Positions 38,058 through 42,058 of a DNA stretch of 64,000 nucleotides are shown one piece after another. Source of the stretch: Actinoplanes sp. NBC_00393. Its GTDB lineage: Bacteria; Actinomycetota; Actinomycetes; Mycobacteriales; Micromonosporaceae. The DNA is taken from NCBI RefSeq assembly GCF_036053395.1, contig NZ_CP107942.1, positions 6,590,501 to 6,654,500 of the forward strand, read 5' to 3'. Under the pieces are notes generated by a model. The model worked only from the letters and a program-made list of their open reading frames with translations. It ran no database searches and was not told the origin of the DNA. Positions within the stretch are counted from its first letter, which is position 1, and every line of letters begins with the position of its first letter. The translations under genes were made by a program, and so were the position numbers.

Positions 38058-41012
38058 TTACTTGACGTTGACCCGCTTCAGGGCCGTCCAGCTGCTGTTC
38101 AAGATGCCCATGTCAGCGTTGCCGGTGACCATGGTCCGCAGAATGAGCTGGTTGGTCCGGGTCGTGACGGACCGCGTGTGCGAGCCATCCGCGCCGAGCT
38201 TGCCCGTGTACAGGTTCTGCCAGGCGCCGTTGACGTAGTTCTGCACCGTCACCGTGGAGCCCGCCGCCCTCGGGTTACCCGCGACCGTGACACTCACCTT
38301 GTCCCGGCTGGGCGAAGAAGCCCGCAGACTCGGGTTCTGCTTGACCCGAACAGTGACCTCGTTGTCGGAGAACATGTCGCCGACCGCGGTCTGGAACACG
38401 TATCCCTGCCCGATCCACCGAGCAATCGAGAAGTTGCCGGACGCGTTCGCCGTACCGGACGCCATCCGGGCGCCCTCGGCTTGGCTGCCCATCGCCCGGC
38501 CCCACAGCTCGACAGTGCTGCCGGGCTCAGCCATACCGGTAAAGGTCACGATGCCGCCACCGACCAGCGTGGTGGTCGTCGTGCTGATGGTGGGAGCGGT
38601 GGGCTCCGGATCGGTCGGGTCCGTCGGGTCGGTCGGGTCCGTCGGGTCAGTCGGGTCCGTCGGATCCGTCGGATCGGTTGGCGTAGTGCCGCCGTCACTG
38701 GCCGCGATAGTGATGACGCCGTCGGTCACGCTGCCAACGTTGCCCACACCGAAACCGGAAGCCAAGATCGACTCGGCTGGCTCGGCTGTGGCATCGTCGG
38801 TGATCGGGATGCTGACGATGGCCTTCTTGGTGCCCGGCAGAGTGCCTGCCTCGATGGTGACAGCCTGCACACCCGGGTTACTGAAGTCGTCCGGGCTGGC
38901 GGCTCGGTGACCGTCGGCCGCGCTTCCCACGAAGGTCACGTTGACCCGGGTCTCCGAGGCTGACATTCCGGTGACAGTGCCGGTGACGGCGACCGTTTGG
39001 CCCTCTTCAGTCGTCACACTGTCGACCTCGAGGTCAGGCGCCTCGTCATCATTGGTCAGGGTGACTGTCGCGGTCTTTGCTGTGGAGCTACCGAGGAAGG
39101 CATCGCTCGCGGCGGCGGAGATGTTGATCGCGTCGTCGCCCTCATGGATGCTGTCCCCGTTAACCAGGGCAATTGCATATCCGGTCATCGTGCCTGCCGG
39201 GATGGAGACCGTGCCGCCGAGCAGAGTGTAGTCGCCACTGCCCACAGTCGACGTAAGTGTGCCCGATGCGGTTCCGGTGGCAGTCAACGGCACGGAGATG
39301 TCGTGGTCACTGGCATTGCTCAGCTTCACCGGGATCAGGACCGCCGACGCGTCGTTGCCTTCCGCCAGCGTGTTGTCGGTCACGCTGATCGTCGGTGCAT
39401 CGTCATCGTCCGTGATGCTGATCGTGGCATCGCCAGAGGCGGCAAGGCTGGTGTCTGAACTGGGCGAGGTGAATTCGATGAGGAAGGTCTCGGCACCAGC
39501 GGTCGTACCATTTACCCGGCCGCTTGCCCCCTCATCAATGGTGTCGCCGATGATGTCGACGGTGAAGGTCTGCGAGGTCGTTCCGGCCGGAAATACCAGC
39601 TGGCCGCTGTTCCTGACATAGTCGAGGCCAGCCACGGCATCACCCACGGCGGGCGTGACACTGTTGTTCGCAGTGTTCCAATTAGCGGTGACCGTCTGCC
39701 CGGATGCTCCGCTCAGGTTGGCGGTGAGGGTCACAGTCTTGCGACCGTCATTTCCTTCGGTGACCGTTCCCCCACTGACACTCACCGTCGGCGCAGCGTC
39801 GGAACCCGCATCGGCGATGGTGCCGTTCACCTTCGTCGTCGCACCCAGCGTCGCGTTGGTCGGCTGCGAAATCTCAATGGCGTATTCCTCGGGTGACAGC
39901 TCCTTGAGACCGTCACCGCTCAGCACGATCGGAATGTCGTAGGTCGTGCTGCCGGGCGCGATGGACAGTACCCGGCCAGTCGAGGCGGGATACGGGAAGT
40001 CGGTCCCCGGCACCGCCTTCCCCCGGCCCGCTGTCGCCGGCGAGGCGTCAACAGCGTCCCAGCGGAAGCCGATAACCTGCTCAGATCCGCTGCTCGCGGT
40101 AACCGTGTAGGTCACCGTGTTGCCCTCGGTCTGTGTGCCGGCCTTTGAAAGTGAGAGCGTCGGCATTGTCTCGTCGTCGGTGATGCTGACCGTGATCGGC
40201 GTGGACGTGGTAGTCGCGTTTACCAGCGCCCCAGGTGTGACAGTGAAAGTTTGTGGCCCGCCTTCGTACACAGTGTCATTGATAATCGGGATCGATACGG
40301 TCTTGACCGTCTCGCCAGGCGCGAAGGAGAACGTCCCTGTGGTCGTGGTGTAGTCCTGACTCGCGGTTGCCGTCCCGTTCGCCGTCGAGTAATCCGCAGT
40401 CACGGTCTGCCCCGAGGGCGCCGACAGCGTCGCGGTGAGCGTGACCGACCCGCCATTCTCGGCAACGGTGGTCTTGTCCGTGGAGTACGTGACGGTAGGT
40501 GTCGGGTCATTGTCGGTAATAGCCGCGTTGATCACCTCCGACTCCATTGCAACGTTGGAGGCTACAAAGGTGATCGTGTAGTTCTCGGTCGCCTCATCAA
40601 AGGCATCGTCGATCACATTGACGGTGGCGGTCTTGGTTTGCGCCGCGCCGCCGACGATAGCATCGAATGTGATTGTGCCGGTCGTGGCAGCAAAGTCGGC
40701 GGCGGAGGTTGCTGGCCCACTGCCAGGCGTGATAGTCCAGGTCACTGTCGAGCCCGCGAAGTCCACACCACCAGCAGTTGCGGCACGCACGATGCTGAAG
40801 CTGATAGCCGCCCCGCCTTCGGTGCCGGCGCCGTTGCCAGTGACGGTATAGCCAGTAATTGCCGCTGCTGCAGGCGAACTGATCATCAGCGTCGGCACGA
40901 GGCCCACCACACCGGCCACAGCTGCCGACAACACCGTTCGCAGGGCCTTCTTGCCACGCAGCGCGAACGGAACCGAGCCGCTCTTGGCCGCATGGGCTTC
41001 TTGATAGCGCAT
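38058..41012 (-). CDS. Large secreted Calx-beta repeat protein
   Basis: 984 residues. A long signal peptide (basic FALRGKKALRTVL, core SAAVAGVVGLVPTLMI, cleavage near SSPAAAA) is followed by about six Calx-beta-type repeats. These are recognised by recurring VNVIDDAFDEATENYTI, IPIINDTVYEGGPQTF, VDIIGDTIDEG and ALVNGDSIHEGDDAI strands, each followed by the acidic linker (T/S)ITDDD-type calcium-binding turn. A (Thr-Asp-Pro)x8 linker and a C-terminal region of about 170 residues with Ig-like strands (VTFTGMAEPGSTVELWG) follow. There is no LPxTG or anchor. It is probably a calcium-stiffened adhesin or matrix protein. ATG 41012 has AAGGAG upstream, and a c-di-GMP riboswitch occupies the leader. 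Confidence 0.88.
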   Translation of the reverse strand: MRYQEAHAAKSGSVPFALRGKKALRTVLSAAVAGVVGLVPTLMISSPAAAAITGYTVTGNGAGTEGGAAISFSIVRAATAGGVDFAGSTVTWTITPGSGPATSAADFAATTGTITFDAIVGGAAQTKTATVNVIDDAFDEATENYTITFVASNVAMESEVINAAITDNDPTPTVTYSTDKTTVAENGGSVTLTATLSAPSGQTVTADYSTANGTATASQDYTTTTGTFSFAPGETVKTVSIPIINDTVYEGGPQTFTVTPGALVNATTTSTPITVSITDDETMPTLSLSKAGTQTEGNTVTYTVTASSGSEQVIGFRWDAVDASPATAGRGKAVPGTDFPYPASTGRVLSIAPGSTTYDIPIVLSGDGLKELSPEEYAIEISQPTNATLGATTKVNGTIADAGSDAAPTVSVSGGTVTEGNDGRKTVTLTANLSGASGQTVTANWNTANNSVTPAVGDAVAGLDYVRNSGQLVFPAGTTSQTFTVDIIGDTIDEGASGRVNGTTAGAETFLIEFTSPSSDTSLAASGDATISITDDDDAPTISVTDNTLAEGNDASAVLIPVKLSNASDHDISVPLTATGTASGTLTSTVGSGDYTLLGGTVSIPAGTMTGYAIALVNGDSIHEGDDAINISAAASDAFLGSSTAKTATVTLTNDDEAPDLEVDSVTTEEGQTVAVTGTVTGMSASETRVNVTFVGSAADGHRAASPDDFSNPGVQAVTIEAGTLPGTKKAIVSIPITDDATAEPAESILASGFGVGNVGSVTDGVITIAASDGGTTPTDPTDPTDPTDPTDPTDPTDPTDPEPTAPTISTTTTTLVGGGIVTFTGMAEPGSTVELWGRAMGSQAEGARMASGTANASGNFSIARWIGQGYVFQTAVGDMFSDNEVTVRVKQNPSLRASSPSRDKVSVTVAGNPRAAGSTVTVQNYVNGAWQNLYTGKLGADGSHTRSVTTRTNQLILRTMVTGNADMGILNSSWTALKRVNVK
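38608..38679 (-). repeat. 9-bp tandem repeat coding for (TDP)x8 linker
   Basis: Eight consecutive 9-base units encode Thr-Asp-Pro between the Calx-beta region and the C-terminal domain. Copy number probably varies between strains. Confidence 0.85.
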
Positions 41013-41030
41013 GTGTTTTCTTTCTCCTTC

Positions 41031-41115
41031 GGCGGCTGGGCTACCTCCGTCCGGGGAGGCCCCTAGCTTTGCGTCCCCGCCTCGCAGCGGGTTTGCCTGT
41101 TCGGGTACCGCACCT
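41031..41115 (-). ncRNA. Cyclic di-GMP-I (GEMM) riboswitch
   Basis: On the minus strand the leader shows the GEMM-I signature in order: GGCAAACC, a P2 hairpin of CCCGCU and GGCGGG closed by a GCGA GNRA tetraloop, GGACGCAAAGC, a P3 hairpin CCTCC/GGAGG, then GGTAGCC. The conserved A and G around GGCAAACC and ACGCAAAGC are the ligand contacts and the tetraloop docks into P3. The element ends about 10 nt before the AAGGAG ribosome site of the Calx-beta gene, so control of translation initiation is likely. The P1 pairing is short (GCGG with CCGC) and was judged by eye. Confidence 0.85.
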
Positions 41116-41185
41116 GAGGGGGCGGCTGGGGTACCGATAAATCGGTTGTGAGCAGCGCAAACGCTCGATCGAAGGTTCCTCATGA

Positions 41186-41440
41186 GGTCGCGCCATCCGT
41201 AATCTAACCGGCGTAACGCACCCTTACCGGCGGAACAGAATTTTTCTCCTAAATCCCCCAGCAGTCCGCAGGTGGCACGCCGGACCCGGGGAACCCGCGA
41301 AGAAGATCAGCGATCACAGCCCGCCAGCGCCCACTGCGGCCACAGCCATCCCGGCGACACCGCGGCCCTCATGACGATCTTGTGACCCCGCGCTGCGGCG
41401 AAGAGCCAGCGGCGGCACACGGGCCAGCCGGAAAGCCAGG
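41186..41440. other. Intergenic region with likely riboswitch promoter
   Basis: No gene seen. On the minus strand TAGATT (complement of 41201-41206) could be the -10 box for the riboswitch transcript, giving a leader of roughly 180 nt. The rest up to the response-regulator stop is featureless. Confidence 0.35.
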
Positions 41441-42058
41441 TCAGAGCAGGCCGTGGCGCATCGCCGTGGTTACGGCGGCGGTGCGGTCGGCGACGTCCAG
41501 CTTGTTGAAAGTTCGCAACAAGTGGGTCTTGACCGTCGCCTCGCTGATGAACAGCTGTTTGCCGATCTCGGCATTCGTAAGACCAGCCGCGACCAACCTC
41601 AGCACCTCGGTCTCGCGTGCTGACAAGGCCGGTGGGGCCGGGCTACGCACCTGCCGGACCAGCGTCGACGCGACGCTCGGCGCCAGCACGGTCTCGCCGC
41701 GGGCGGCCGCCCGCACGGCGTCCGCCAGCTCCGTCGGCGAGGCGTCCTTCAGCAGGTAGCCGGAGGCGCCGGCCTCGATGGCGCGCAGGATGTCACGGTC
41801 CGATTCATAGGTGGTGAGGACCATGACCCGTATCCCGGAGGAGCTCGACAGGATCTGGGCGGTGGCGTCCACCCCGTCGCCACCGGGCATTCGGAGGTCC
41901 ATCAGCACGATGTCGGGTCGTTCGGCCAGGGCCAGCGCGACGCCTTCGGTGCCGGAGGAGGCCTCGCCGATCACGGTGAGATCGGGCTCGGCGTCGAGCA
42001 TGCCGCGCAAGCCCATCCGGACCACGGGGTGATCGTCGACGAGCAGGATGCGGATCAC
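41441..42058 (-). CDS. NarL/LuxR-family response regulator
   Basis: 205 residues: receiver domain (acidic pair LVDDHP, phospho-acceptor VLMDLRMPGGDG, VLTTYESD, LLKDASP) and a C-terminal LuxR HTH (LSARETEVLRLVAAGLTNAE, ATVKTHLLRTFNKL). It overlaps the histidine kinase by 4 nt and is the last gene of a six-gene leftward operon with two ABC-2 transporter pairs, whose expression it probably controls. Confidence 0.92.
   Translation of the reverse strand: MIRILLVDDHPVVRMGLRGMLDAEPDLTVIGEASSGTEGVALALAERPDIVLMDLRMPGGDGVDATAQILSSSSGIRVMVLTTYESDRDILRAIEAGASGYLLKDASPTELADAVRAAARGETVLAPSVASTLVRQVRSPAPPALSARETEVLRLVAAGLTNAEIGKQLFISEATVKTHLLRTFNKLDVADRTAAVTTAMRHGLL

Follow-up and report, generated by a model that had tools for sequence, protein, structure and literature searches.

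The 64,000-nucleotide window analysed here comes from Actinoplanes sp. NBC_00393 (contig NZ_CP107942.1, positions 6,590,501 to 6,654,500) and encodes, on its minus strand, a 984-residue Calx-beta protein whose gene is preceded by a leader containing a class-I cyclic di-GMP (c-di-GMP; GEMM-I) aptamer. Pfam assigned Calx-beta to three stretches of the protein (PF03160, 117.3 bits), and this was the sole family matched. The layout consists of a hydrophobic N-terminal stretch, a linker of DPT repeats and a conserved C-terminal part, and judged from its sequence the protein is apparently exported. An earlier note on this DNA had attached the leader to this gene, which the frame at 41012-38058 bears out, and had called its product giant; at 984 residues the description does not hold, despite related frames of ~2,500-3,600 residues nearby in several relatives. 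The surface location, matrix role and calcium binding that the note gave the product are at most putative.

The aptamer is complete and occupies positions 41106-41027 of the minus strand. The GEMM-I blocks, the P2 helix capped by a GNRA loop and the GGTAGCC block that had been reported for the leader are all present. The aptamer also ends at the ribosome site, as had been claimed, the last position of the match (41027) falling within the Shine-Dalgarno (SD) sequence AAGGAG. When the whole window was scanned with cmscan at gathering thresholds, a single match was returned, to RF03167 (c-di-GMP-I-GGC; 59.7 bits, cut-off 59, E 1.4e-11), beneath which one lower-ranked match of the same clan was suppressed. 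In a search of the whole genome, the covariance model RF01051 (c-di-GMP-I), the check on which the earlier claim could have failed, scored 63.4 bits at this site, exceeding its gathering cut-off of 35. The element may already carry a label from annotation pipelines.

RF01051 was also run against larger genome samples (E <= 0.001, with stricter filters by which some weak matches were lost). Of the 67 Actinoplanes genomes, 60 gave matches (59 above the cut-off), amounting to 82 matches of which 81 exceeded the cut-off. Among 300 genomes sampled from the family, these 60 matched again and none of the 233 genomes from other genera did so, leaving one genus in 44, and 14 control genomes yielded no RF01051 match. 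Chance is therefore a poor explanation. When the phylum was sampled evenly, matches occurred in 155 of 396 genomes. An exact-pattern scan of named genomes for the aptamer core gave 27 records, 20 of them from Actinoplanes or Paractinoplanes; the other seven (a metagenome-assembled genome of Herpetosiphonaceae, another of Solirubrobacteraceae, a bin named Kuenenia and others) have the same junction and P2, although the names of such assemblies may be wrong. The window element thus genuinely belongs to an established riboswitch class, lies before a Calx-beta gene and recurs across the genus.

The 82 matches were divided into two groups according to CAGCCGCC, a motif close to their 3' end. Group A, the type found in the window, comprises 59 copies in 59 genomes, and group B comprises 23 copies, one in each of 23 genomes; group A is present as well in 22 of these. 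An open frame begins 13-16 nucleotides behind the match in all 59 group-A copies; the 34 frames that end within the fetched DNA are 704-1228 residues long. A Pfam scan of nine of these orthologues plus the window protein found Calx-beta in all ten. Matches to the window protein, some of them partial, were found in 64 of the 67 genus genomes. The description of the host as a filamentous actinomycete in which a GEMM-I riboswitch leads a Calx-beta gene is thus supported, the pairing being genus-wide. Orthologues of nearly full length share only 37-48% identity with the window protein, while the aptamer is nearly unchanged in an alignment of the 59 leaders. All 59 retain G20 and C92, 57 retain A47, and each has the SD core GGAG behind the aptamer. 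Among the 79 copies with 25-nucleotide spacing, the fifth pair of P2 is TG in 30, GC in 19, CG in 18, TA in 9 and something else in 3, and its second pair is CG in 74 and TA in 5. Across copies, these pairs vary on both strands in ways that preserve pairing. The pairs of P3 differ between groups A and B. In the phylum sample, G20 and A47 were present by eye in all 22 full-length loci (from 30 loci, 8 cut by contig ends being excluded), a set that is biased because it is made of best-scoring matches.

Vc2 of Vibrio cholerae is a solved example of the c-di-GMP-I riboswitch. In the Vc2 numbering, G14, G20, A47 and C92 fall at 41102, 41097, 41070 and 41032, and the window aptamer has G20, A47 and C92. 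With the RF01051 type it shares the fold, the junction blocks, the GNRA-capped P2 and these three residues; it differs in that its SD overlaps P1 and in an A.C at the base of P3. Its J1/2 is one base shorter than that of Vc2 (GAACAGGC). PMC9049102 describes the role of G20, A47 and C92 as ligand residues, with A47 stacking between the ligand guanines and its mutation preventing binding.

The genome (11.4 Mb, a single contig) contains 83 GGDEF matches, approximately one per 138 kb, two of which are halves of one domain, so c-di-GMP is very probably made in this host. In 80 of the 83, Asn and Asp occupy the guanine-reading positions; the remaining three comprise one match with Asn/Asn, one with Gly/Glu and one that does not extend over the site. 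Ser or Thr there, the sign of a Hypr-type enzyme according to PMC6456294, was seen in none of them. With G20, A47 and C92 in place and no Hypr-type cyclase among the 83, the window RNA likely has c-di-GMP as its ligand. The earlier note had also drawn in a GGDEF-EAL gene of the same window. This gene exists and encodes a 907-residue PAS-GGDEF-EAL protein; as a specific partner of the riboswitch it was rejected, one among so many GGDEF matches genome-wide giving no specific link.

Two other ligand assignments were weighed. The GEMM-Ib RNAs of Geobacter, which sense 3',3'-cyclic GMP-AMP (cGAMP), have the same architecture, and a second GEMM-I aptamer of the Actinoplanes genome shares with them A20, a change that, according to PMC7288161, lets a c-di-GMP-I RNA bind cGAMP. 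The window RNA, unlike these, has G20 (G41097), and the GGDEF complement lacks the Hypr residues; a SMODS search of the genome gave no match, other cyclase types not having been searched. We therefore regard cGAMP sensing by the window RNA as extremely unlikely. Assignment to the c-di-GMP-I-GGC class with an altered ligand preference is favoured by RF03167 being the name that cmscan retains and the best one for this aptamer. We take GGC to denote the bases at positions 20, 47 and 92 of that class; position 47 is G in the RF03167 consensus as printed, where the window has A (A41070). Moreover, the cut-off of RF03167 is exceeded by 0.7 bits and that of RF01051 by 28.4. Such a variant is very improbable, and because the window keeps A47 the GGC label was rejected as a sign of a different ligand.

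We hold with good confidence that the element is a class-I c-di-GMP riboswitch acting on translation initiation of the apparently exported Calx-beta protein, where the ligand, the translational mode and the direction are what we infer. In this mechanism, binding of c-di-GMP at the three-way junction (G20, A47 and C92) would lock P1, P2 and P3, and folding of the aptamer would alter the access of ribosomes to the SD and hence the output of Calx-beta protein. Such an effect on access is suggested by the extension of P1 into the SD and by the complementarity of the distal P3 strand CCUC to it. No terminator-like site was found between the aptamer and the ATG, so control of the gene is likely to be translational. 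A Calx-beta adhesin influenced by c-di-GMP has a parallel in FrhA of V. cholerae, which combines Calx-beta and cadherin repeats; there, however, according to PMC6890996, control runs via TfoY, itself expressed under riboswitch control, whereas here the aptamer lies in the Calx-beta leader itself.

Several observations weigh against this interpretation, some concerning the integrity of the element and others its direction. The plain folding energy of the window aptamer is ordinary (z -0.13, with 87 of 200 shuffles folding equally well). The A.C at the base of P3 recurs in all 59 group-A copies, and a second non-standard pair, C.A, occupies the fourth position of P3 in 55 of them, the window copy being one of the four with U-A there. 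Of the seven genus genomes without an RF01051 match, three (G011, G019, G025) also lack a match to the protein, and four keep the protein match behind a weak or broken leader aptamer (loci L189, L190, L191 and L192). To RF03167, three of these leaders scored 40.7, 36.4 and 27.8 bits and the fourth gave no match at E <= 1. All four keep CCUC and the SD GGAG, with GGAGG as the distal P3 partner in two and GGAGAGG in two. The Calx-beta gene can outlive its sensor. These broken copies, together with related copies in which the P2 loop is no longer GNRA and the three of 82 with G47, are what a functionless relic would resemble; the window copy itself, at 63.4 bits, retains the GNRA loop, A47, C92 and the stems, and other phyla share the CGAACAGGC junction, making a relic in this genome very improbable.

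The remaining points concern the direction in which the riboswitch would act. The first two G of the SD (41027, 41026) can pair with C41104 and C41105 as P1's 3' strand, and a P1 that takes up these bases favours an OFF switch. When P1 alone was enforced in the 58 of 59 group-A leaders that could be constrained, the mean openness of the SD went from 0.48 to 0.42. When the whole aptamer was enforced in six folding contexts, the SD became more open in 43, 42, 36, 34, 23 and 33 of the 59 leaders, indicating that genus-wide folding does not fix the direction; for the window leader it was more open in all six. The same sensor may accordingly work with the opposite sign, the ligand stabilizing a P1 that holds the GG of the SD in its 3' strand and shutting translation off. 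We give this OFF switch a substantial, though less than even, probability: the overlap of the SD with P1, the effect of enforcing P1 and the context with 23 of 59 are consistent with it, while the other five contexts (33-43 of 59) and the window leader are not, and P1 covers no more than two of the SD's four core bases. We lean slightly towards an ON switch, in which the ligand would free the SD.

A possible anti-aptamer was also considered. The CCUC of distal P3 could pair either with GAGG at 41044-41047 within the aptamer or with the SD GGAG, and the latter, as an alternative pairing, favours an ON switch. The mean difference between enforced CCUC:SD and aptamer folds was +1.4 kcal/mol (range -9.8 to 10.1; 54 of 59 within 5), energies that were computed without a control and in which a forced helix often costs little. 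In the partition function, CCUC:SD pairing exceeded 0.3 in just 0 to 9 of the 59 leaders, depending on the context. Where a tetraloop receptor might lie, distal P3 of the window reads CCUC/GAGG, and CCU/AGG was seen by eye in distal P3 of four of the 22 full-length phylum loci as well (L199, L208, L215, L221), so that conservation of CCUC may stem from docking of the GNRA loop. Given the uncontrolled near-equal energies, the low pairing probability and the phylum loci, the CCUC:SD anti-aptamer was not accepted as established.

The second GEMM-I aptamer of this genome (locus L032) belongs to group B and has A at position 20. It scored 47.9 bits to RF03167, below the cut-off of 59. Downstream lie a 144-residue, apparently exported protein and then a frame with a signal-peptidase match (TIGR02228, 52.2 bits, cut-off 51.85). 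Across group B, a frame of 133-150 residues was called by script in 19 of the 23 loci, the other four failing the script's filter. The N-terminus of the protein, MRNMxQLLGGVAVAGVVAAGSTAFTA, looks like an export signal. A signal-peptidase-like frame, recognized by motif only outside this genome, follows in 22 of the 23, and the remaining locus has only 2761 nucleotides downstream. Two group-B proteins that were scanned matched no Pfam or NCBIfam family above the cut-off, and a likeness to TasA or camelysin was rejected, the AlphaFold2 model (mean predicted local distance difference test score 71.3) having no match in the PDB at E <= 0.001.

Group B retains A47 in 22 and C92 in all 23 copies, while position 20 varies: 12 copies have G, 6 have A (this genome's among them) and 5 have C (L088, L091, L095, L096, L097). 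C20 is not known from any GEMM-I class described so far. A cGAMP role for the A20 paralogue would lack a known cyclase in this genome, other cyclase types and other genomes not having been covered. A more speculative reading, which we consider less likely than not, is that two related GEMM-I switches run two exported-protein outputs: the switch of the Calx-beta gene, fixed at G20, and that of an operon for a small exported protein and a signal peptidase, which has drifted at the base reading one half of the ligand, with no Hypr-type cyclase in the single genome inspected. In that case the base at position 20 would tune the affinity for c-di-GMP or, where it is C, follow a ligand not yet known, and would not simply signal a switch to cGAMP. 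The G, A and C series at this position constitutes a natural set of mutants for ligand choice by GEMM-I RNAs.

Should the proposed ligand and direction be right, the mRNA for an exported Calx-beta protein would be a direct target of c-di-GMP in Actinoplanes. GGDEF proteins are numerous in this genus, which passes from mycelium to sporangia and motile spores, so the leader could serve as a native c-di-GMP reporter. Among the matches listed in a search of the open-licence literature, no title concerned an Actinoplanes Calx-beta riboswitch.

Table 1. Features of the Calx-beta gene, its leader and the second aptamer (window positions unless a locus is named).
Feature	Position	Strand	Basis or remark
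Calx-beta protein gene, 984 residues	38058-41012 (stop codon included)	-	PF03160; ATG 41012
SD AAGGAG	41024-41029	-	sequence; 11 nucleotides before ATG 41012
P3	41067-41035	-	sequence
Aptamer block GGTAGCC	41045-41039	-	sequence
CCUC of distal P3	41056-41059	-	59/59 group-A copies
Aptamer block GGACGCAAAGC	41076-41066	-	sequence
P2	41091-41076	-	stem CCCGCU/GGCGGG
GNRA loop GCGA capping P2	41085-41082	-	sequence
Aptamer block GGCAAACC	41097-41090	-	sequence
Small inverted repeat ACCGATTTATCGGT	41133-41146	-	by eye in leader alignment
Block GGTTAGATTACGGATGGCG	41191-41209	-	conserved in many group-A leaders (59-leader alignment)
Terminator-like hairpin	41308-41326	-	only one within 41000-41450; 0.4 expected in shuffles
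Second GEMM-I aptamer of the same genome	L032:8146-8221 = G000:C1:9158145-9158220	-	RF01051, 50.5 bits

Further upstream in the leader, the GGTTAGATTACGGATGGCG block sits ~85-100 nucleotides before the aptamer in many group-A leaders and may mark a promoter or the start of the leader. A scan of 41000-41450 for sigma-70-type promoters found none. Near the position of the ACCGATTTATCGGT repeat, many group-A leaders have hairpins of differing sequence, as judged by eye. The terminator-like hairpin separates the leader from a response-regulator gene (41441-42058) lying upstream, and may mark the end of that gene's operon.

A search for related loci queried with the Calx-beta protein returned nothing. 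The C-terminal ~190 residues of the protein (38061-38630, minus strand) are 31-49% identical to their matches in 17 aligned relatives, and matches to this part also occur in neighbouring large frames. In several relatives, frames of ~2,500-3,600 residues that match the Calx-beta protein are found near the riboswitch-led gene, for example at G048:C1:11200270-11229537 and likewise in G041, G066, G028, G054, G046 and G033.

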